Origin: an uncultured Paraprevotella sp.
GTDB taxonomy: Bacteria > Bacteroidota > Bacteroidia > Bacteroidales > Bacteroidaceae
Length of the DNA: 64,000 nt
Reading direction: 5' to 3'
Assembly: GCA_944321345.1 (NCBI GenBank)
Contig: CALUKY010000005.1
Coordinates: 62,001-126,000 of the forward strand
The position numbers were made by a program, and so were the translations under genes. Under the pieces are notes generated by a model. The model did not search any database. It was not told the origin of the DNA and was given only the letters and a program-made list of their open reading frames with translations. Positions 12,655 to 62,185 of this stretch are shown piece after piece; positions within the stretch are counted from its first letter, which is position 1, and each line of letters starts with the position of its first letter.

Positions 12655-13127
12655 AATTCCCTGAATACCTCGAAAAACTGGCAAAAGAGCATTCCATGAT
12701 CAAGCACTCAGACGATGAGTGCCATTTCAGTGACATGACTATTGACCATGCAAATAAGCTCTCTCACTTAATGCACTACCCCATGATCGCAGTGGATATG
12801 GATAGTTTCAGTCTATCCGGCGGATCCGGCCAGTACTTTTTCAATGACCAGTTCAATATCTACTTTTTGACGCACGTCCGAGATACCTGTTCACAAATTG
12901 AGATCCGCCAGGCACTCCATACAACCCGCGAGATTATGACCGATTTTATTGCCCGGTTCAGTCGGGATAAACGTCGTCAAGTGGATGCCGTCGTCCGGAT
13001 TGAGTTGTCGCAAGCTGACGGAATACCTATCTTTTTTAAAGATGTTTCCTTATATGGTTGGTGTCTTTCTGTCCTGTGCCCAGACATATTAAATGATCAT
13101 CTTTGTAATAATCACTTTTCAATTTGA
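12651..13127 (+). CDS. Phage tail completion-like protein (158 aa)
   Basis: The 158-residue protein has an alternating strand/helix pattern (FNIYFLTHVRDTC, then EIRQALHTTREIMTDFIARF) that resembles small tail-terminator or completion proteins of siphoviruses. No diagnostic motif is present. Its 3' end contains the GTCCT box of the next promoter, and the tail fibre gene starts 5 bases after its stop. It overlaps the preceding gene by 4 bases. Confidence 0.5.
   Translation: MKFPEYLEKLAKEHSMIKHSDDECHFSDMTIDHANKLSHLMHYPMIAVDMDSFSLSGGSGQYFFNDQFNIYFLTHVRDTCSQIEIRQALHTTREIMTDFIARFSRDKRRQVDAVVRIELSQADGIPIFFKDVSLYGWCLSVLCPDILNDHLCNNHFSI
13071..13105 (+). promoter_or_regulatory. Phage promoter, GTCCT-N22-CATCTTTG form (copy 2)
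   Basis: GTCCT (13071-13075), exactly 22 nt, then CATCTTTG (13098-13105). It lies inside the end of the preceding gene and 26 nt before the tail fibre start, in the same geometry as copies at 8048 and 18619. Confidence 0.5.
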
Positions 13128-13131
13128 ATCT

Positions 13132-15111
13132 ATGAGTAGCCTAAAAGAACAAGCGCAAATTATTCGTGATGAGACCCTTCCTGGAGCCAACACAGCTCAA
13201 AGGATCGGAGACATGTTCGTGAATCTCGTTAACGAAGTTGAAAAAAAACTCAGTACTGGCAGCTTAGCTCAAGCCACAGGTTCCAGCATCACAAATGCCA
13301 TGAGCCAAGATGCTGTAACAAAAGAACTTGCAAAAAGAGTAAGTAAAGACAGTTTAGCTCAAGGCACAGGTTCCAGTACTACAACACCCATGAGCCAAAA
13401 AGCAGTAACATCTGCCCTCAATACAGTCAATAAGATTTATATCACTTCGTTGGATATTACCACCAAGACCACAGGATATACAATATCAGCAGCAGATAAA
13501 AAAGAGCTTGAAAATATCAGAACCAAGTCTGCTGATATGGCCATTTATTGTAAGTCTAATTCGAGTTGGTACACATTTATTTATCCGGATGGAGATATCT
13601 GGAATCCGATTCTAAAGGCGCTTGTTGGCACTAAAATATATACCGTAACCGATATAATATCTCCGACTACATGGAAGGTCACTTTTGTGGATCTGGCAGC
13701 TGGCGGCACAGAAGCAGGTAATGGAACCTATGTTACGAGCCTGAACATAAAAAACTTATCCGGACAATCTAATCCGTCACAGATTTCCGAAATCCAGAAT
13801 ATCATAGATGCAATCACTAAAGGACAAGTTGTAGTCTTTTATTTGGATCCCGGAACTGTAAACTATAATGAGACACTTTTCTTGTCGGCCCGTAAAACTG
13901 GAGGAACTGATAATCGGTCCTATTACCTCTCTGCGATATCAACAGAAGGTGTTATTTATAAAGCGACAGCAAATGTAACCTCTGATATTTGGGGCGAAGG
14001 TGGTGATACTTATGGTGCCTGGACTACAAGCAAGATTGATATGACTGTTAGTGGCTCTGGAGGTATTGAAGATGTAGGGCAGCAAAGCACAACAGGTTTC
14101 AGCTTTGAGCGAGTTAATAAAGCATGGGTCGCACGAAGTCATTATACAGACAGCAATATAGGTAAGATCCTAGGTGCCAGCAGTTCCGAGTATTTACATC
14201 AAGCACTTGGAGATTTTAGCGACTTTATGCAAGCCGTAGAGCAGGGGTTGAATATTTATTGTGTAGAATATTACAGCAATAAAGATGTTAAAAATTATAA
14301 AGTTCACATTCCGATTTATTATAAGTATGATCCTATTGCAGATATAAAAACAATTGAGTTATCGTGGACCATAGGAACAGTTACGACAACCATTGTAGTA
14401 GATATTACAGACGGATGGGGTGATATTTTAGATTTTAAACGCGTAGACATTGCTAACATAGAACGCCCATACATAGTGCATATTGTAACGGCTCTTAATA
14501 ATGGGCGCGGAGTTGCTGATTTTGACTCGCCAAATAGAATAGAGGTAAGACTTGATAGGGAGTTACAAGAAGGGTATACCCTCGCCTTGTTAAGGAGAAA
14601 AAAAGTAAAATATCATAAAAGAAACGGACGAACAAGAATTAAGGGCATAGGTTATAGATTAGTAACTGAGGCACAAGGATTTATTGATGGTGGTTCCTTT
14701 AGAGATAGGAGCAAATTTATAGCAAAATTGAAATTTCGTTATGACGAAGTAAATCAGTATTATTGCCTCATAGATGATACTGGCGAGCCCGTATCTCCTT
14801 TTAAGTTTGCCTTGCACTATACCGAAGTACGAGACGGTGTATTGAGAGTTTCTTGTGCAGGAAGACAAAGTAAGAGCCTATATGAATTTTCTGATCCGGA
14901 TAATGGCGGTAAAAGGCTAAGATATAAAATGCAATTTGGAATAGCTGTGATTAAATACCAGCACGGAGATAAAGTTGATGGCGGATATGTAGTTTGCTCT
15001 AATATCGCAAAAATGGAATTTAGTTTTAGTAATATGGCCGGCATTACCGAGCTAGACCCGGTTGTAGATGAAGATCTAGAACTTGGATTTAGAGTGCATG
15101 TTATCAACTAG
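13132..15111 (+). CDS. Modular tail fibre / receptor-binding protein
   Basis: The 659-residue protein starts MSSLKEQAQI (13132; the 13-residue upstream extension overlaps the preceding gene). Residues 35-100 carry two copies of a repeat, SLAQ-TGSS-T--MSQ-AVT, common in Bacteroidota phage fibres and probably forming trimeric shaft or linker. The middle is beta-rich, and the last 220 residues (from about RELQEGYTLALLRRKK) are basic and encoded by clearly AT-richer DNA, as expected for an exchanged host-recognition tip. It is the only gene between two promoters, and a leftward small RNA gene begins immediately after its TAG stop. Confidence 0.75.
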   Translation: MSSLKEQAQIIRDETLPGANTAQRIGDMFVNLVNEVEKKLSTGSLAQATGSSITNAMSQDAVTKELAKRVSKDSLAQGTGSSTTTPMSQKAVTSALNTVNKIYITSLDITTKTTGYTISAADKKELENIRTKSADMAIYCKSNSSWYTFIYPDGDIWNPILKALVGTKIYTVTDIISPTTWKVTFVDLAAGGTEAGNGTYVTSLNIKNLSGQSNPSQISEIQNIIDAITKGQVVVFYLDPGTVNYNETLFLSARKTGGTDNRSYYLSAISTEGVIYKATANVTSDIWGEGGDTYGAWTTSKIDMTVSGSGGIEDVGQQSTTGFSFERVNKAWVARSHYTDSNIGKILGASSSEYLHQALGDFSDFMQAVEQGLNIYCVEYYSNKDVKNYKVHIPIYYKYDPIADIKTIELSWTIGTVTTTIVVDITDGWGDILDFKRVDIANIERPYIVHIVTALNNGRGVADFDSPNRIEVRLDRELQEGYTLALLRRKKVKYHKRNGRTRIKGIGYRLVTEAQGFIDGGSFRDRSKFIAKLKFRYDEVNQYYCLIDDTGEPVSPFKFALHYTEVRDGVLRVSCAGRQSKSLYEFSDPDNGGKRLRYKMQFGIAVIKYQHGDKVDGGYVVCSNIAKMEFSFSNMAGITELDPVVDEDLELGFRVHVIN

Positions 15112-15112
15112 A

Positions 15113-15208
15113 ATAAAAAAATGGGGCATCGTGTACCGAAAGCCCCAAGCTTTGGGCATCGTGTACCGAAAGCCCAAGAAATGAGGCATCGTGTACCGAA
15201 AGCCTCAT
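15113..15208 (-). ncRNA. Leftward three-hairpin small RNA
   Basis: Three hairpins share an identical 14-nt loop (plus strand ATCGTGTACCGAAA, starting at 15128, 15158 and 15188, an exact 30-nt period). Their stems differ but stay paired: TGGGGC/GCCCCA, TTGGGC/GCCCAA and ATGAGGC/GCCTCAT. On the minus strand a consensus promoter (15213-15244) places the start at the first stem, and the last hairpin is followed by T6 (15121-15116), an intrinsic terminator. The result is a roughly 95-nt RNA made almost only of hairpins. Repeated exposed loops suggest a protein or RNA sponge, by inference. No known RNA family was recognised. Confidence 0.65.
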
Positions 15209-15212
15209 GCCA

Positions 15213-15244
15213 CAAAGATATAAAAAACATATTCAAAACACAAA
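15213..15244 (-). promoter_or_regulatory. Promoter of the three-hairpin RNA
   Basis: On the minus strand TTTG (15241-15244), 20 nt and TATCTTTG (15213-15220) match the Bacteroidota consensus. The expected start near 15207 coincides with the outer end of the first hairpin. Confidence 0.65.
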
Positions 15245-15316
15245 TTAAAATGCGCAAGATCAGAGCAGAAAAAATGTTTGTTTATACCTGTTTTGACAAC
15301 CAAACTAAAATAAAAC

Positions 15317-15553
15317 ATGAAAAAAATGATTGCTTGGTTGCGTGAGAGCAACCGTTGGAAACACCTCGTTGGTGGTTGTATGATTGGATTGGCATCGTCA
15401 GATGCCTGGTGTGCTACTTTGGCCGGAGTGGGCATCGCTTCGGCGTTGGAGTATAAAGACAAGGCGCACGGAGGCTCATGGGATTGGATAGACTGGGGCC
15501 TGACAATCGCCGGAGTTATTGTTGGATTTGGAGTTAAATGGATGATAGTATGA
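15317..15553 (+). CDS. Small membrane protein of lysis region (78 aa)
   Basis: The 78-residue protein has two hydrophobic stretches (HLVGGCMIGLASSDAWCATLAG and LTIAGVIVGFGVKWMIV) separated by a polar loop (EYKDKAHGGSWDW). It overlaps the holin gene by 16 bases and heads the lysis cassette. It may act as a second holin, antiholin or membrane partner. The gene starts 109 bases after the leftward small RNA's first hairpin, with no clear rightward promoter of its own, so it probably depends on read-through from the tail fibre operon. Confidence 0.65.
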   Translation: MKKMIAWLRESNRWKHLVGGCMIGLASSDAWCATLAGVGIASALEYKDKAHGGSWDWIDWGLTIAGVIVGFGVKWMIV

Positions 15554-16008
15554 TAAGAGCATTGAACACAACAGCCCCACAGCTGGCCGTGATTGGGGGC
15601 TATACCTTCTTGGGAGAAATGAAACAGGTAGTTTTTGATCTTCGATGGATGTTCTTGTTCATCCTGATACTGATTGCCGCAGATTTCATTCTGGGCATTA
15701 TAGACAGTATTATCAAACGGGGTGAGGAGTTCCGCTTCAGCAGGGCCGGGCGCCGGACTATGTGCAAATTTATCGAATACAATTCCTATCTGGTTCTGGG
15801 TTTTACTTTCGGAATTGCGGTTCTGCAGCCGGTCGGCATCTGTAACTACATGATCAGTAGCGTCGGAGGATTATGTCTGGCGATATTGTTCGAGGCGGAC
15901 AGTATCAAAGATCATGTGTGTGCCATCCACGGGATAGAAAACAAATTTTCTGTAAAAAAATGGTTCGTTGAGTTCCTAAAAAAGAAAATCAATAAAATAA
16001 CAGACTAA
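15538..16008 (+). CDS. Phage holin
   Basis: The holin makes inner-membrane holes that release the lysozyme. This 156-residue protein has three hydrophobic segments (about 35-55 MFLFILILIAADFILGIID, 80-100 YLVLGFTFGIAVLQ and 105-122) and a basic C-terminal tail (KKWFVEFLKKKINKI), in keeping with the phage_holin_4 type often seen in Bacteroidota. It overlaps the small membrane gene by 16 bases and precedes the lysozyme by 11 bases. Confidence 0.75.
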   Translation: MDDSMIRALNTTAPQLAVIGGYTFLGEMKQVVFDLRWMFLFILILIAADFILGIIDSIIKRGEEFRFSRAGRRTMCKFIEYNSYLVLGFTFGIAVLQPVGICNYMISSVGGLCLAILFEADSIKDHVCAIHGIENKFSVKKWFVEFLKKKINKITD

Positions 16009-16019
16009 ATTTTAGATCT

Positions 16020-16451
16020 ATGAAATCAAGTAATATCTTAATCGCTAAAATCAAGGAGTTCGAGGGCTTCCGCAGTCAAGCTTACAAATGCCCGGCTGGA
16101 GTCTGGACGATTGGTTATGGCCACACGGCAGATGTCAAGCCGGGAGATAAAATTTCTGAGGCCGAAGCCGAGCGTTTGTTGCGCAAAGATCTGATCCATT
16201 ACGAAGCTTTTGTCGAATCGTTGAATGTCTCCCAGAAACAAGAAAAGTTTGATGCCTTGGTTGACTTTGCCTACAATCTGGGTTGTGCAGCCCTCGAAGG
16301 TTCGACCTTGCTCAAGAAGATTCGAGCTTGCCGACCCGACAAAGAAATCCGCGCGGAGTTTATGCGCTGGGTATATTCCAAGAAAAAGAAGCTTCCGGGG
16401 TTGGTGACTCGTCGCCAGTGGGAGGCAGACCGATACTTTAACCAGGTGTAA
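16020..16451 (+). CDS. GH24 phage lysozyme (endolysin)
   Basis: This 143-residue muramidase cleaves peptidoglycan. It shows the GH24 pattern EGFRSQAYKCPAGVWTIGYGHT: catalytic Glu15, Thr30 and the position of the T4 lysozyme aspartate taken by Cys24, a substitution common in phage R-type endolysins. Later GH24 features are visible (ALVDFAYNLG near 78 and a terminal R-Q-WEADRYF). There is no obvious N-terminal signal or anchor, so release should depend on the holin upstream. It lies 2 bases before the spanin-like gene. Confidence 0.93.
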   Translation: MKSSNILIAKIKEFEGFRSQAYKCPAGVWTIGYGHTADVKPGDKISEAEAERLLRKDLIHYEAFVESLNVSQKQEKFDALVDFAYNLGCAALEGSTLLKKIRACRPDKEIRAEFMRWVYSKKKKLPGLVTRRQWEADRYFNQV

Positions 16452-26115: not shown

Positions 26116-26198
26116 TGTTTGGCAACCCCAACCAATGCGATAAAACCATACTCTGAATTTTTTTGTCCCGATTTTGTCCCGGCACCTTTAAACGAATT

Positions 26199-26233: not shown

Positions 26234-26240
26234 TTCTTTG

Positions 26241-26313
26241 TTGCGGAGGCCCGACTCGAACAGACGACCTCCAGGTTATGAGCCTGGCGAGCTACCAACT
26301 GCTCCACTCCGCG
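26241..26313 (-). tRNA. tRNA-Met (CAT), probably initiator
   Basis: Read on the minus strand the sequence folds as a tRNA with a CTCATAA anticodon loop (anticodon CAT). The acceptor stem starts CGCGGAG and ends CTCCGCA, giving an unpaired C1-A72, the hallmark of bacterial initiator tRNA. The anticodon stem has G30-C40 and G31-C39 but A29-U41 rather than three G-C pairs. No CCA is encoded. Its 3' end faces the phage integrase, so the integrated phage must rebuild it. Confidence 0.88.
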
Positions 26314-54613: not shown

Positions 54614-57600
54614 TTAGCGTGTCAGCGAGAAACGCAGGCTAAAGCCGAAGTCCTGAGTAATGGTCGGATAAGAATTCGACGAAAGCAACGGCATGTTTCG
54701 CTGACGGTCGTAATACAGCGTAAAGGTCATATATTTGCTCAGCGTATAATCAGCGCTGAATGAAGCCTTCACGGCACGGTTTCCACTGGTCGCCTCAGAT
54801 AGCGAATTCTGGATATCGCGGGTAATTGAACTCTGCGAACGGTAAGAAAAATCAAACTGCAGATTCAGCTCCCGGTTAAATGAATTCTTTGAAGTCTGTT
54901 TCTGTTCCTCTTCATCCGATGACGAGCGCTTACTTTTCACCCGGCGCCGCTTGTTGAAGAGGCTTCCGATACGGAAATCATTTACCCGATACCCCCAACC
55001 GAATACAATGTCATCACTGCCAGACTCATTCAGCTGGACAGACGTCATACTCAGAGTCAGAATGCGGGTTTTCTTATACTCGGCTTTCAGTGTCATATTA
55101 TTCTTCAGTGTTACATTGACACCGACCAAAGGAGAAAACGATTCGTTTATCGAAACCGAACTGATATCATACATACTGCTCGGCAGATAGCTTCCCGTAG
55201 TAGTATTGGACACAAATCCCAGATCACCCATATATTGCAACCAGGTACTGTATGTATTGTACGCTCCAACCGAATAAATGCTTCGATAAGCATGACTCAG
55301 CGTAACACTCTTCAGATGTTCCTTCACCCATGGCAAACGGCTCAGTCCCTTATACGACATGCTCCAATTAGGCAACATACGGAACAACGAAGGGAAGATA
55401 TCCAGTTTGTCTCCTCCGGTATATGCCGAAAGAAAAGCCGGAATCATCACATCAGAAGAGTACTTGTCCACAGTTCCGTTCTCAGGATTGAATTTTCCGC
55501 TCATACCGGTACCCTCAGGATAAGTAGCTCCTATGTACTGTTTTTCCACCCGCTGCTGATAAGTGCCCAACAGATTCTGGAATTTGCTGAAACTTTTGCT
55601 GGCATAACCGTTATCGGCATTTCCTGCTCCTTCAAAAGCCGACCCGATGGATATGGTGGTCATATTAAAGCTACCACTGCGAGTCGAAGGCATACCGGCA
55701 TACATATATTGAATACTGTTGCTGGCATTCGTCGTACGCGATGCGCTGAGATCTATCTTCAAATCCGGAAGAGGTTCCAACGTTACCTTCAGCTGCAGGT
55801 CTTCAGTCGTACTGCTTACCGCAGGCGAACTCACGCTGTCATTATTCAGCAGCCAGCCCCGGTCATTGGCCTTGCGGATATAATTGTCATCAACAAATCC
55901 AAAGGCAAAATCCAATCCGGGCTGCAATCCTCCGGCAGAACGCTGACCGAACATATCACCTACATTAGGCAGGAAACCCGGCAAAGCCATAGAGTAACTG
56001 TTCCGGTAACTGATGCTGGCATTACGTACCATCATCAAAAGGCGGGCGGCTCCCTGAGCATAAACATACCATGGTTTATCCTCCGCTTTAGGCAATGCAA
56101 TGACATTCAACCGGACTTTCACACTGTCCTGTCCTTTGATCCGAATGGTATTCTCATCTACTTTTTTGTATTTGAGTTCATAGCGCTTGCCGTTCTCCGA
56201 CACGGCTGTTACCCGGATTTTCTTGCTCTTCTGATTATGTTTCACAACTAACTGCGAATCGGGAAAGAGTGATATCTCCTTGGCAAATCCCTTGAAAGCA
56301 GTTTTTTTCTTGGCATTAGCCACTCCCTTGGCATTCGTCAGTGCTGTCAGACTGTCAGCCGCGGCAGTTTTTCCCTCAGCCAGCAGTTTCTCACGCTCTT
56401 GGAGCATCTTTTTGCGCTCTTCCTTTTCTTTCTCTTTTTCCTGAGCCTTCTTTTGGCGTTCTCTTTCCGCTTTACGCCGTCCGGCCAAAGAAAAACGCTG
56501 GTTGGCGTCTTTCAGGAAATCCCAGTGATTATACAGTTTTTCCAGATTGATCTTTCCATTGATATTCACATCACGCTGTGTATTCACCGTATTTCCCAGC
56601 GTACTGCCATCCTCCATCTGGGCGCCACGCACCCACGAATAGGTTGCGTTATAACTTCCGTCACCGTCAATCCAGTCAAAACACGGAATCTGGCTTAACG
56701 GAAGTTTATACGATCCATTAAAGGTCTGCTGATAATCCAATGGAGTTCCGAATCCTTTGATACTATGCCATACAGAATCTTTCCATGCTGTATACGAATC
56801 CGGATACAGATCCTTGTTCACCGGTGTATAAGGTTCTTCGATTTCTGCACGGGTAGCCGATGAGAATGACAAATGCAAAGCCTTTGTCAAATCCCAGCGG
56901 ATATTGAAATCACGGTTCCACAGGAAATCTTGGGCAAACGACAGCGGCAATGAAGTCGGATATTCCAGATTCTCCATATCTCGTTCCTGGAACTCATAAT
57001 AATTCCGCGAGATATCCGTATTGAAGCTCAAACTCTGAGGCAGATAGTTCAAATTGATATTCTTCACGATATCCAGCCACTTGCTCTTGCTTTTGATCTT
57101 CTTTTTAAAAGGCTCCAGAGGTTTGTAATTGGGCGAGTAAGCATAGCTCATACCGCCGCTCCATCTCTTTTCCGTTTCCCAAGCCGTAGTTTCTCCGGTT
57201 TTGTACGAGCTGCTATGGGCATAGTTAAACGAGAAGTTGGCCGGGTCATAAGGCATGGCATGGCGCGGAGTAACTATATTCACCCGTACATTACTCAAAC
57301 TCAAGTTCTTGTTTACCGTACGCGTCGTCGTCAGATTCGACAACGAGTCACGCTCATGGTCGGTTGTCAAAGCATCCATGGCATCGCGTAACAGCATATC
57401 CGTATCCAACGGATTGTATTTGGGTTTGATAATCTCCTTACTGTAAGAATAATACAACGGGAACGACACACGTGCCTTTTCCGGAAGGAGCTTACCCAAT
57501 TCCAGACTGGTAGTGATGCTGTAGTTATAGGTATCCTCATTCCGGCGTTCACTTACCGACTGTTCCAAGCCACCGAATCCGGCAGTCACGACCTGTCCTT

Positions 57601-60600
57601 GCAAAGTCACACTACCCAAATCGGAAAGTTGCACGTTCAGGTTTCCTTGAGCAGCCCATCCGCCGTCATTGTTAAACTCCTGCATACGCAACTCGTTAAT
57701 CCATACCTCTACAGATTTCGTCACCCCGGAATTATTACGCACTCCCACCATAATGGTTTTCACCTCTCCTAAAGTGGGATTTCCCATGATACTGACCTTA
57801 TTGTTCGGTTTGTCCGGATCATACTCCGAATAGAGCTGGTTCATGGATATCATTCCCATACTCTTGGAATGATTCCGGTTTTTCTTCACATTGGTCAGCA
57901 ATGACAGATTTATGTCAAGCATATTTTCTTCAGGCCATACCACTTTCCGGTGCTCGGGGTTGCGCTGACCGTACTTTCCTTCCGGAGTAAGTTTCAGCGG
58001 AATCTCATACTCATAGAAATTATTCCGGTAATCCGATCCTAACCGGATAAACACGCTCATCTGATTATCCTCCAGATCCGTATAATCATCGCTCACGGCA
58101 TTCGCATGCACAAACATCTGCAAATGCTTGTACTGGCGCATGTCCAGATTCATATTCTTATATACGGCACGTGCATCACCGCTACCCAAATTCTTCACGA
58201 CCATAGCCAAAGCCTGTTCATTATCCTCTGCCAACTGGGCCTGACTTGGATCAACCACCCGGCTGATGCCCGGCGGTACGACATAATTCACCGGAGTCTT
58301 CTCTCCGTTTTCTTCAATATTCACCGCCGACACATCCATGGTACCGTCTGTAGCAGGAGCCTCGCCGGTATTCAAAGCCTGTTCATAGGTTCTCCACTGG
58401 CCTTGTACCAGATCCAGCGTAGCCAGACGCATGATTACCGGTTGCTCAAAATCGGTCAGGAACATACGTACAAAACGAATACTGGTAAAGTCATTGATAT
58501 TTCCCACCTTTTTCTGATACTGGTCAACCGGAATACGGAACAGGTACCAGTCCACTTCTTCCGTTTCATTATTACGCAACTTTACGCTGGTGTGGCGCTT
58601 ATCCACCACATAATTCTTACCCACCACCAGATCTTCAGGACGAATGCTGACCTTGTACTGAAAATAGCGTTCATACTCATTCAGGGTATAGTCCTGATTG
58701 ATGTCCTCTCCATCGGGTGTCGTCTTGTATGACGTATCATACGCTTCCGGTGAACTCTCTGCCGACCGTGAGTTTCCTTCAGGATTATTGATACGCTTGT
58801 AACGGTCCAGAATACTCAGTTGCTTCTTATCATAGTCCGAACCTCGGAAATAATGATAATCATCCCCGGCAGGGTCGTTCAGCAACGAATCAAACACGGC
58901 TGGCGACACCTTACCTTGTACTGCTGCCAGAAACTCCTTATAGGCACCGTAATTCTTCTCATCGGCACTGCTTAGTCCGTTCAGACCGATATCCTGTTTG
59001 TCACGTGCTCCGCTCTCATTGTTAAAGGCATAGGTAATACTATTGGTGGTAGGCACTCTTCCCCATACAGTTTCAGAAAAATAGTTCGTGCTGCCATCGG
59101 TCGGCATACTGCTTTCAACGAACTTTTTTCCGTCCTTCAGGATGTCTTCACTCACCTCACCCAGATTAATGTAGAAATCACCACCATAATTTCCTCCCTT
59201 ATCACGAGTATAAATAAACGGGTCAAGCATCCAGAATTCAATATACTCAATATTCGAGGTTTCGAAATCACTGACATCCAGTTTGCGCATCATTCCACCC
59301 CAATGCTGAGCCGGAGTAGGCAGTTTACCATTATAATCCAAATTCGGATTCAGGTTATAAGGACCGCGTTCCGAAGGATAATAAGCGATGTTCATTACAG
59401 ACAACGACGTAGATGAGTTGTATGTATTTTGAGATTTGGTTGGATACAGCTCACGCTCGGGAATTTCTCGCACATAATGATTTGAAAGCTGGTTCAAGTC
59501 ATTTTTGATATGCGTAGGAGTCAGAGTAGAACTGCGTCGCGTAAAGATCGGATCCACATAATACCAGCTCAACAGGGCACGGTTATATCCGGTACGCACA
59601 TCATTGCTCAGCTTGCTTTCTGCAAAATCGCTCGGCACACTGGATATCGTCCACGAAGTGGGTTGCATGATGCTGATAGATGTTTCCGCACTCTCGAAGT
59701 CATCGATATACGAAGCCGATCCCTGCACTTTGTGATTCTGCCCGGCAATCAATTGGGCAAACTCTCCGGTAAAGTTAATCTGCGAAGGAGTCGTACATTG
59801 TACCAACGGAAGCATATCAAGCAGATTGGTCAGCCATTGGCTCTCATGTTTCCACGACAGATTTACGCCCCACAAGGTATTCTTCAAAGGTTCCTCTCCC
59901 ATATTTACTTTACTGGTAAGAGGCTGTTCATTCAAAAACATCAAGGTACCGCCCAGCACCAGATCCTTCGAAAAGTCATATTGCAGATTCATACCCAGCA
60001 TCGTTTTACGCTGCATGCCATAATTCTCGTTACTCTCGAAACTGGCGCTTACGTTTGTTCCCGCATCAATAATACTTTGATTAATGATCGTAACACGACC
60101 CATAGAGTAATCCACCGTATAGTCCACATTTTCGGTCAGCGTTACACCGCCGGCCGTAACCACAACCGATCCCTGAGGTATATTCATGGATCCCAGATCT
60201 ATTTCGGCTCCATTGTTTCCCTTATACTCACCAGTCAGCAGGTATTTGTCTTTTTCGGCAATCTGCTTCGCTACGGTTTTGGTAGAATCATACAACTCCT
60301 GGAAACAATATTTATCAGCCAGGCGTTCATCATTCAGATAATTACGCAAATGGCTTCCAAACGGCTCTACTACAGGAAAATAGATACGGCCTTTGCTGAT
60401 AGTATAACCTTCCAGATAATCAAACTGTCCGTTAGGATAAGGATTGTTCTTGGCATCCAGACGGTCCAGATTCATGACACGCAACAAAGGAGTGCTTTTA
60501 AATTTTTCTTCAGGCAGGTAATTCAGATACACACCGGCCGAATCACTCTGATATTTGATGTCCAGTTTGAATTTCTCTGATTGGGTTGTCGTAGCATTCA

Positions 60601-62185
60601 GACTGTAAACGTTCTTCATCATCAGGTCCCAGTTTCCGATCGAAGGTGATACGGCTGTATTTTTCAATGCTTTGACATACAAAGCCTGTGCATTATCTGT
60701 CAGGTCTGTCGAAAACTCACCTACCTGATAAGTCTGTCCGTTATAAGTATATTCAAAGGCAACTGCCAGAACTTCGTCACTCTGCAGCGTAAAATTCAGC
60801 GACACATATCCCAATGCTTCATTAACCGTGTATTCGCTGCTGCTCAATTTGCGTGCGCTCTGTAACTTTTCATAATCAGTTCCTCCCTGAAAATTGGGTA
60901 TGGCGTCAAGGACCTGAGTCGTGGAACTGATGTTACGGGCTTCGGAATACTGGTTCACCATCGCCTCATAAAGCGAGTTCGAACGGTTTACCGGATTGGT
61001 ATTTCCGGTTTTCACCCAAATAGGATTACTGATATGATCAGCCTCACCCAGATCCGTAAAAGCCACAATATTACGGTTACTTTCGTTGTTTCCGGTTTTG
61101 TTGGTCACCCAAAGCTCAATACGCTTTATAGTCACTCCGGAAGCAATATTCGGAGCCGATTTCATGCTCTTGTCATAATTGTCCCGAAAGAAATGCGCCA
61201 GGAAATAGTGACGGTTCTCTTCATAGGCCGTAGCTGTAAACTCAAAGGAATGCAGCTGCACTCCTCCTTTCGAAGAAACTGTTTTCGAGGCGGATTCCTT
61301 CTGTGATACCACAGTTTGTAATTTCAGCTTTCCAAACTGCAAATCGGTACGGATACCGAACAAGGCTGATGATCCTTGGATAAGCGAAGAATTTGAAGGC
61401 AATGAAACATTTCCAGCTTCAATCAACTTAATGATTTCATCTTCCTTTCCCTCATATTTAAGTTTCAGACTTTGGGCATCCATATCAAAGGTTGCGTCCG
61501 TATTATAGTTCAGGTTCATATTGATTTTGTCACCCACGCTACCTTTCAGACTCATATTGATATTCTCGTCAAAATCAAAGCCTAACGTTTTCCGCTTACT
61601 GGCAGCAAGTGCCGGATTCTGCACATTACGCATGTTGGCTCCGATTTTGAGTTCTGCCGATCCCTGCGTCTTGATCTGCACGCCACCGGGACCGAAGATT
61701 TTCTCGGCCGGTCCCAGATCAAACTGCATGTTGGTAAAGTCAAATTTGTTCTTTCCTTCCGAATCAAAGGCTTCCTGATTCTTCTGCCGGTAATAGTCAC
61801 GCAATGACTGCTGAAGAGTCCACTGCTGATACTCTTCTGCTGTCATCAGAATCGGAGCACTCAAATAACCGTCACCCACTTTCTTTCCGATAATGTAAGT
61901 GTTGGTCTTGGCATCGTATATGGTATCCGGTTTTATATTTTCCGGACTTCTCAGATCCATGTTCTTCTTGCGCAAATCTCCCTCGTCCTGAGGCACAGTC
62001 CGTGCTACCGGAAAACGGCTCACAACCGTATCCGGCTCCTTTGCCTGAATCACATCCGTCGGCAAACGGTGTGACTGGCGTGCCTTTGCCCCGCCGATCA
62101 TGGGATGATTCCAGGAAGCCCAGGCATTGATTCCCATGAACAGAAGCAGCGACAAGTAAAGAATATGTTTCAACTTGTTTTTCAT
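54614..62185 (-). CDS. sprA: Giant outer-membrane protein SprA
   Basis: SprA (Sov) is the 36-strand outer-membrane barrel through which type IX-secreted proteins leave the cell in gliding Bacteroidota. The 2523 residues have a signal peptide (LKHILYLSLLLFMGINAWA), long repeats of beta strands with SprA-type segments (GADYTVDYSMGRVTIIN-like near 700), a charged coiled-coil insertion of about 60 residues near 1890-1950 (AERERQKKAQEKEKEKEERK) and a C-terminal barrel end (FGFSLRFSLTR). It lies 27 bases behind ruvA. No other type IX genes are in the window, so its role here may be different or the partners lie elsewhere. Confidence 0.95.
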   Translation of the reverse strand: MKNKLKHILYLSLLLFMGINAWASWNHPMIGGAKARQSHRLPTDVIQAKEPDTVVSRFPVARTVPQDEGDLRKKNMDLRSPENIKPDTIYDAKTNTYIIGKKVGDGYLSAPILMTAEEYQQWTLQQSLRDYYRQKNQEAFDSEGKNKFDFTNMQFDLGPAEKIFGPGGVQIKTQGSAELKIGANMRNVQNPALAASKRKTLGFDFDENINMSLKGSVGDKINMNLNYNTDATFDMDAQSLKLKYEGKEDEIIKLIEAGNVSLPSNSSLIQGSSALFGIRTDLQFGKLKLQTVVSQKESASKTVSSKGGVQLHSFEFTATAYEENRHYFLAHFFRDNYDKSMKSAPNIASGVTIKRIELWVTNKTGNNESNRNIVAFTDLGEADHISNPIWVKTGNTNPVNRSNSLYEAMVNQYSEARNISSTTQVLDAIPNFQGGTDYEKLQSARKLSSSEYTVNEALGYVSLNFTLQSDEVLAVAFEYTYNGQTYQVGEFSTDLTDNAQALYVKALKNTAVSPSIGNWDLMMKNVYSLNATTTQSEKFKLDIKYQSDSAGVYLNYLPEEKFKSTPLLRVMNLDRLDAKNNPYPNGQFDYLEGYTISKGRIYFPVVEPFGSHLRNYLNDERLADKYCFQELYDSTKTVAKQIAEKDKYLLTGEYKGNNGAEIDLGSMNIPQGSVVVTAGGVTLTENVDYTVDYSMGRVTIINQSIIDAGTNVSASFESNENYGMQRKTMLGMNLQYDFSKDLVLGGTLMFLNEQPLTSKVNMGEEPLKNTLWGVNLSWKHESQWLTNLLDMLPLVQCTTPSQINFTGEFAQLIAGQNHKVQGSASYIDDFESAETSISIMQPTSWTISSVPSDFAESKLSNDVRTGYNRALLSWYYVDPIFTRRSSTLTPTHIKNDLNQLSNHYVREIPERELYPTKSQNTYNSSTSLSVMNIAYYPSERGPYNLNPNLDYNGKLPTPAQHWGGMMRKLDVSDFETSNIEYIEFWMLDPFIYTRDKGGNYGGDFYINLGEVSEDILKDGKKFVESSMPTDGSTNYFSETVWGRVPTTNSITYAFNNESGARDKQDIGLNGLSSADEKNYGAYKEFLAAVQGKVSPAVFDSLLNDPAGDDYHYFRGSDYDKKQLSILDRYKRINNPEGNSRSAESSPEAYDTSYKTTPDGEDINQDYTLNEYERYFQYKVSIRPEDLVVGKNYVVDKRHTSVKLRNNETEEVDWYLFRIPVDQYQKKVGNINDFTSIRFVRMFLTDFEQPVIMRLATLDLVQGQWRTYEQALNTGEAPATDGTMDVSAVNIEENGEKTPVNYVVPPGISRVVDPSQAQLAEDNEQALAMVVKNLGSGDARAVYKNMNLDMRQYKHLQMFVHANAVSDDYTDLEDNQMSVFIRLGSDYRNNFYEYEIPLKLTPEGKYGQRNPEHRKVVWPEENMLDINLSLLTNVKKNRNHSKSMGMISMNQLYSEYDPDKPNNKVSIMGNPTLGEVKTIMVGVRNNSGVTKSVEVWINELRMQEFNNDGGWAAQGNLNVQLSDLGSVTLQGQVVTAGFGGLEQSVSERRNEDTYNYSITTSLELGKLLPEKARVSFPLYYSYSKEIIKPKYNPLDTDMLLRDAMDALTTDHERDSLSNLTTTRTVNKNLSLSNVRVNIVTPRHAMPYDPANFSFNYAHSSSYKTGETTAWETEKRWSGGMSYAYSPNYKPLEPFKKKIKSKSKWLDIVKNINLNYLPQSLSFNTDISRNYYEFQERDMENLEYPTSLPLSFAQDFLWNRDFNIRWDLTKALHLSFSSATRAEIEEPYTPVNKDLYPDSYTAWKDSVWHSIKGFGTPLDYQQTFNGSYKLPLSQIPCFDWIDGDGSYNATYSWVRGAQMEDGSTLGNTVNTQRDVNINGKINLEKLYNHWDFLKDANQRFSLAGRRKAERERQKKAQEKEKEKEERKKMLQEREKLLAEGKTAAADSLTALTNAKGVANAKKKTAFKGFAKEISLFPDSQLVVKHNQKSKKIRVTAVSENGKRYELKYKKVDENTIRIKGQDSVKVRLNVIALPKAEDKPWYVYAQGAARLLMMVRNASISYRNSYSMALPGFLPNVGDMFGQRSAGGLQPGLDFAFGFVDDNYIRKANDRGWLLNNDSVSSPAVSSTTEDLQLKVTLEPLPDLKIDLSASRTTNASNSIQYMYAGMPSTRSGSFNMTTISIGSAFEGAGNADNGYASKSFSKFQNLLGTYQQRVEKQYIGATYPEGTGMSGKFNPENGTVDKYSSDVMIPAFLSAYTGGDKLDIFPSLFRMLPNWSMSYKGLSRLPWVKEHLKSVTLSHAYRSIYSVGAYNTYSTWLQYMGDLGFVSNTTTGSYLPSSMYDISSVSINESFSPLVGVNVTLKNNMTLKAEYKKTRILTLSMTSVQLNESGSDDIVFGWGYRVNDFRIGSLFNKRRRVKSKRSSSDEEEQKQTSKNSFNRELNLQFDFSYRSQSSITRDIQNSLSEATSGNRAVKASFSADYTLSKYMTFTLYYDRQRNMPLLSSNSYPTITQDFGFSLRFSLTR

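Follow-up and report, generated by a model that had tools for sequence, protein, structure and literature searches.

The locus

The window, that is, the whole stretch of 64,000 nucleotides analysed here, comprises the right-hand portion of a prophage together with the host sequence beyond it. The prophage is 42.3 kb (42,296 bases) long, as delimited by a 16-bp repeat of the 3´ end of a tRNA-Met found at both of its ends, with an integrase gene adjoining the right repeat and a helix-turn-helix repressor-like gene adjoining the left one. A direct repeat of 22 bp, TTTTGTCCCGATTTTGTCCCGG, has one copy at 26161-26182 of the window and the other at C5:46054-46075 of the contig, each just inside a prophage end, and these copies are likely arm sites of the integrase. 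A second integrase gene inside the prophage, located beside a gene with a weak methyltransferase match (L240:1199-3266), is possibly part of a nested or invertible element. Within the host portion of the window, an open reading frame of 2523 aa is located on the minus strand (54614-62185).

The rightward genes of the prophage include terminase-like, portal-like, tail-tape, holin-like and lysozyme genes, the terminase match being weak (19.4 bits, cut-off 22). The following features frame the array that is the subject of this work:

Contig C5:45960-45975, left attachment repeat, outside the window, partner of the right repeat
13093-15111, plus strand, tail-fibre-like gene, upstream of the array (PHROG tail fiber, E 2.5e-5 and 3.1e-4; no Pfam match)
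15317-15553, plus strand, 78-aa gene of an ORF136a-like family, first gene after the array (phrog_38535, E 1.3e-29)
15538-16008, plus strand, holin-like gene (Phage_holin_4_1, E 8.6e-4; with 19.8 bits it falls short of the curated cut-off, 22.2)
16020-16451, plus strand, phage lysozyme (PF00959, E 1.1e-44)
26240-26255, right attachment repeat in the 3´ end of tRNA-Met (16-bp repeat pair)

The array lies in the intergenic stretch between the end of the tail-fibre-like gene at 15111 and the start of the 78-aa gene at 15317. It had been placed antisense between the fibre and the lysis genes in an earlier reading made from the sequence alone (here the sequence-only reading), and this location holds. 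Those of the neighbouring genes that match a family run rightward, and none of six minus-strand frames near the array (14319-15462) has a family match above the cut-off. The 78-aa gene has tblastn matches in 88 phage records, 75 of them from Bacteroides phages, and together with the type of the promoter these matches suggest that the host is one of the Bacteroidota.

An array of three hairpins with one constant head

The array and its signals comprise the following elements, all on the minus strand:

15213-15244, predicted promoter of the Bacteroidetes primary-sigma type, TTTG-20 nt-TATCTTTG (consensus match)
15181-15208, hairpin 3, the first in the RNA, ATGAGGC / GCCTCAT (sequence and predicted fold)
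15185-15204, identical 20-nt core, copy 3, GGC TTTCGGTACACGAT GCC (0/20 core columns vary)
15152-15177, hairpin 2, TTGGGC / GCCCAA (sequence and predicted fold)
15155-15174, identical 20-nt core, copy 2 (0/20 core columns vary)
15122-15147, hairpin 1, the last in the RNA, terminator stem, TGGGGC / GCCCCA (sequence and predicted fold)
15125-15144, identical 20-nt core, copy 1 (0/20 core columns vary)
15115-15121, T7 run, predicted intrinsic terminator tail after hairpin 1 (sequence)
15115-15208, predicted small RNA of about 94 nt (5´ end estimated by means of the -7 element, 3´ end by the T-run)

Each 30-nt unit contains a 14-nt segment between complementary arms of 6-7 nt. The same 14-nt loop, ATCGTGTACCGAAA on the plus strand, occupies 15128-15141, 15158-15171 and 15188-15201, so that the three hairpins with an identical loop and a constant period (30 and 30 nt), as described in the sequence-only reading, are confirmed by their coordinates. 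A search for the 15-mer with up to two mismatches gave three occurrences in the window, all within the array, where 0.06 were expected. In an alignment of the three units none of the 14 loop columns varies compared to 8 of the remaining 16 (p 0.0027); with the 20-nt core, the limits of which were set post hoc, the ratio is 0/20 to 8/10 for outer stem and spacers (p 7.7e-6). The hairpins are not listed by the general inverted-repeat scan, which takes only arms of at least 12 nt and gave no hit, and they are outside the reach of the terminator scan, which takes loops of 3-8 nt only. Repeated identical loops of 8-18 nt were found in 2.46 Mb of fetched records, a non-random sample containing the locus itself several times (redundant hits merged), only in the array and in one other locus, L011, a two-copy repeat with near-identical stems. 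Since no homologue of the array was found, it is possibly young, and the identity of its units may in part reflect recent duplication.

The stems differ in sequence and keep their pairing, as had been noted before: all 27 cells of the nine counted structure pairs pair, and two of the nine pairs are exchanged on both sides (on the minus strand GC to UA and GC to AU). This count leaves out the outermost possible pair, which reads A/A, T/G and A/T on the plus strand and lacks conservation. Column shuffles matched the observed pair count in 59 of 500 cases, which with three rows is a weak control, and the compensation argument therefore rests on the two independent double exchanges. Both compensations were reproduced in a fraction of 0.00077 of trials in a post-hoc draw with two random changes in the 3´ arm. 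Taken together, the constant core, the diverged outer stem and spacers and the two double exchanges suggest selection on the sequence of the head and on pairing, not on the sequence of the stem.

Within the 14-nt loop an inner helix of 3 bp is predicted, leaving a 5-nt GUACA apex. The former description of the loop as exposed is thus probably too generous, with 6 of the 14 nucleotides predicted to be paired.

Predicted promoter, terminator and transcript

The consensus TTTG / TAnnTTTG is quoted for Bacteroides promoters (PMC7366714). A consensus promoter on the minus strand had been reported to start at the first stem, and this putative promoter is present, separated from the stem by 4 nt. It is one of eight consensus sites in the window, where 1.13 were expected, and being about seven times commoner than in shuffled sequence, these sites may mark transcription start sites. 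At the other end of the array the T-run claimed in the sequence-only reading is found as well, its length being seven (15115-15121) and not six. Terminator-like sites number 24 between 8000 and 27000 (17.3 expected), and since further ones on the minus strand are located in the late region, for instance at 18521-18499, a leftward terminator alone is weak evidence. When stems were required to have perfect arms of 5 bp or more and T-runs a length of 6 or more, the joint pattern of promoter, stem and T-run within 140 nt had a single occurrence in the window, at the array, and none in any of 60 dinucleotide shuffles. Thus, with respect to what is expected of a bacterial intergenic small RNA, an own promoter and an intrinsic terminator are both present as sequence signals.

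Folding predictions differ between the strands. On the minus strand three local hairpins are predicted, with mean stem pair probabilities of 0.75, 0.89 and 0.81, whereas the respective plus-strand values are 0.04, 0.83 and 0.19, with the outer two units pairing together; a fold into three separate hairpins is predicted for the minus strand alone. Taken singly, the plus-strand hairpins are less stable by about 2.3 kcal/mol each, and within the array two of them are mostly unformed. The folding energy of the minus strand has a z of -5.47 (0 of 200 shuffles as good) and that of the plus strand a z of -5.36, better than all 200 shuffles, for one long-range structure. As shuffles are far less stable than either strand, folding energy by itself does not discriminate between the two. 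The strand choice rests on local structure together with promoter and terminator, and these predictions favour the minus strand. The anatomy of the single leftward RNA of about 95 nt that had been suggested earlier is in this way supported by sequence and strand-specific folding, the predicted length being 94 nt.

Search for relatives of the array

The array is rare within the sequences searched: it was seen nowhere else in its own genome, in 300 other genomes of the family, in 44 viral portal relatives or in Rfam. A search of related phages for the loop had been proposed together with the sequence-only reading, and among the relatives examined it yielded no array. The exact 15-mer is absent from all 199 other genomes of the genus, family and order. 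The exact loop was found in at least 119 genome-contig stretches and 17 viral ones, and among the matches listed none has a stem of more than 5 bp or a second exact copy. One match to the 14-nt loop lies in a host gene that looks from its translation like uvrA (contig C8:85065-85092) and was judged to be chance. The tandem loop pattern matched 34 viral stretches and 15 of 393 other genomes, none of them alike (the 15 genomes were judged by eye). A nearly palindromic tandem 21-nt repeat, TGTACCGAGTAAYGGTACTGT, was observed in another genome of the order (G618:C20:123438-123613); it differs from the array. With two free bases the core pattern matched a single viral stretch, in a long open frame read as portal-like, and this was attributed to chance; with four free bases, among 320 loci searched, it was found besides the own copies only in L297 and L320, both in long open frames and both rejected.

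A covariance model of the three units gave its own three sites scores of 45.6-48.4 bits, and no match in the 300 other genomes of the family exceeded 24.4 bits. At E values up to 1, with stricter filters used, 51 of 301 genomes match; the four matches inspected (L291, L292, L293 and L297) are all in long open frames and were discarded, and the best other match (E 0.012 per genome) is at chance level because so many genomes were searched. Rfam gave only a tRNA at gathering score in the whole window. Four sub-threshold matches fall into 14900-15400, one of which, suhB, overlaps the array with 14.1 bits where 41 are needed. BLASTN hits of the array, to three plasmid and 22 phage records, were all short or partial with E values of 0.04 or worse.

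The neighbouring genes were followed in the same way. The 78-aa gene is present in 15 of 301 genomes (its own included) and in nine viral loci, and the stretches upstream of it in 28 fetched loci contain no array except the own copy. Upstream of a 78-aa relative in loci L146-L149 and L158, near-identical copies vary, by eye, at scattered positions within a short part of a coding repeat; this part resembles the variable region of a diversity-generating retroelement. The fibre gene was found in none of the 300 other genomes, in no phage record and in no viral contig, and the holin-like gene has no match in viral contigs. Relatives of the portal gene were detected in six phage records and 44 viral loci, and in none of 17 other genomes of the genus. 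Among the 44 loci, 12 contain p12651 and p18651, which flank the fibre-lysis segment, in the order of the window; in L280, L281 and L282 the two are adjacent with no segment between them, and in L270 and L277 their order is different. None of the 44 loci matches the fibre, 78-aa, holin-like or lysozyme protein, and the comparison is for this reason not like for like. These loci, all without this fibre-lysis segment, contain no array and no model match above 13.3 bits, and none of the 11 minus-strand promoters found among them leads into such an array. Relatives may exist in metagenomes beyond the genomes and viral contigs covered here.

A possible decoy for a trans-acting partner

We tentatively propose, with somewhat less than even confidence, that the array encodes a prophage small RNA, about 94 nt long, in which one recognition hairpin for a trans-acting partner is present three times and which would act as a decoy for this partner. 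From its own promoter, of the host-sigma type, the prophage would produce a leftward, self-terminating RNA, and it would most likely do so in the lysogenic state, as long as the late operon is not expressed. Three separate hairpins with stems that differ in sequence would present the same 20-nt head, consisting of a lower stem GGC/GCC, an inner UCG/CGA helix and the GUACA apex. These heads would serve as three sites for one partner in trans, most likely a host or phage RNA-binding protein, which would be titrated as several copies of it are bound, and the differing outer stems would prevent the hairpins from pairing with one another. Upon induction, late transcription running rightward across the array would block its promoter, the resulting transcript would anneal to the RNA, and the decoy would thereby be switched off.

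A sponge in the manner of CsrB had been suggested in the sequence-only reading. Constant heads on changed stems would fit the trans recognition implied by a sponge, whereas the CsrB type does not stand. CsrB/RsmZ-type sponges carry GGA (A(N)GGA) motifs in their hairpin loops, and GGA is absent from the loop UUUCGGUACACGAU. CsrA (PF02599) was found in 3 of 14 control genomes and not in the own genome, a draft that is 91% complete. Since the loop is without GGA and no CsrA was found, we do not regard the RNA as CsrB-type. RRM proteins gave no match in the own draft genome and matched in 2 of 14 control genomes. An RNA anti-CRISPR, a mimic of CRISPR repeats, would call for a CRISPR-Cas system in a host, and Cas1 (PF01867) had no match in the own draft and matches in 9 of 14 controls. 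The search for RNA targets in trans gave a best duplex of -12.9 kcal/mol with 125 contig start regions, and 41 of 60 shuffled loops were equal or better. An antitoxin RNA of type III was considered and rejected, the six minus-strand frames at 14319-15462 being without a toxin-like match in Pfam or PADLOC; one sub-threshold Pfam match in these frames (E 0.032) is to an unrelated viral family. Among eight prophage proteins encoded on the plus strand, no PADLOC match fell below E 0.0083.

It is a more doubtful claim that this would be a new kind of decoy RNA in phages, probably those of Bacteroidota, titrating an RNA-binding regulator in a host in which no CsrA or RRM protein was found. In the literature search no paper on a noncoding small RNA of a Bacteroides phage was found, nor one on a phage small RNA with tandem identical-loop hairpins; among the matches listed, none names one in its title or the start of its abstract.

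Alternative explanations

The next best explanation is a cis-antisense RNA. It would first make loop-loop contact with the late mRNA that runs from the fibre to the lysis genes, then pair with it over its full length, and would reduce late expression in the lysogen or that of a superinfecting relative. Perfect complementarity to the late mRNA would follow from the position alone if read-through from fibre to lysis genes occurs, and no plus-strand terminator is listed between these genes by the scan of loops 3-8. Precedents are described with STnc6030 (PMC7067206), with OOP and sar (PMC12197685) and with DonS-type RNAs in Bacteroides (PMC7366714), and by analogy this explanation has the closest precedent of all in STnc6030 of prophage BTP1. 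However, it leaves three identical heads with changed stems unexplained, and the predicted RNA covers no start site, ending just before the fibre stop and beginning 108 nt upstream of the 78-aa start. We rank the decoy above it because constant heads, changed but paired stems and insulated hairpins suit one trans partner, whereas a cis-antisense RNA needs no identical loops, as its target changes along with it. Cis-antisense action appears rather unlikely as the explanation, and both roles could be combined.

It might also be possible that the late mRNA on the plus strand is the functional form, for instance as a structured spacer with an RNase III site or a stability element. Its one long-range structure does fold well below shuffles, but the weaker and largely unformed single hairpins speak against this and the leftward promoter and terminator would be left unexplained, and we consider it improbable. 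A double-stranded DNA element, in which a repressor or another DNA-binding protein would occupy three sites, each about 20 bp long and all on the same face of the helix, would suit the identical 20-bp cores, the 30-bp spacing and the position beside a promoter, in a prophage that has a helix-turn-helix repressor-like gene. Binding to the duplex does not explain two-sided stem exchanges, though, other model hits on the searched stretches of contig C5 do not exceed 13.4 bits, and no match to the four-free-base version of the core pattern was found in the repressor locus (L289), making this a highly improbable reading. Just as improbable is a small tandem duplication with no function as RNA, perhaps a peptide repeat (HRVPKA repeats in an open reading frame at 15121-15345), the frame of which is preserved by the 30-nt period, since the encoded residues differ at the exchanged stem positions, the peptide matches no family in Pfam or PADLOC and only two phage records at E 0.7, and promoter and terminator frame the array.

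If the array is a decoy, its three-copy recognition head is a ready-made bait, and a pull-down could name a regulator directly. If it is antisense instead, it would be a candidate regulator of lysogeny or superinfection, and control of this kind is known from phage BTP1 of Salmonella (PMC7067206).

Comparison with known systems

As is the case for the decoy proposed here, several hairpins show the same motif to one partner, which is titrated, in CsrB/CsrC and RsmY/Z, the multi-hairpin protein decoys. Unlike these, the array is prophage-borne, has three hairpins only and no GGA in its loops, and CsrA was not found. The antitoxin RNAs of type III toxin-antitoxin systems (ToxI/CptI) consist of tandem repeats with units of some tens of nucleotides, and the array resembles them in being a tandem-repeat RNA of such a unit size; it differs from them in its separate hairpins with changed stems and in that the adjacent minus-strand frames have no match to a toxin family.

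Among phage RNAs, OOP of phage lambda is 77 nt long (PMC12197685) and overlaps the 3´ end of cII (PMC7067206). Like OOP, the array RNA would be a short RNA opposite a phage operon, but it overlaps no gene with family support and carries three repeated heads. AgvB, an RNA of prophage Sp5, mimics the mRNA targets of the small RNA GcvB (PMC12197685). The role proposed here, a prophage RNA acting in trans as mimic or decoy, would be similar, whereas for the array RNA no pairing partner was found. The late genes of BTP1 to which STnc6030 is antisense include the tailspike gene and one for DNA injection, and plasmid-borne expression of STnc6030 confers protection against this phage (PMC7067206). STnc6030 is annotated with 786 nt and is antisense to coding genes (PMC7067206), unlike the array RNA, which is predicted to be about 94 nt long, intergenic and made of repeated hairpins. 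Like STnc6030, however, the array is located opposite prophage late genes and beside host-recognition genes, and it is thus a candidate for a similar role in superinfection or lysogeny.
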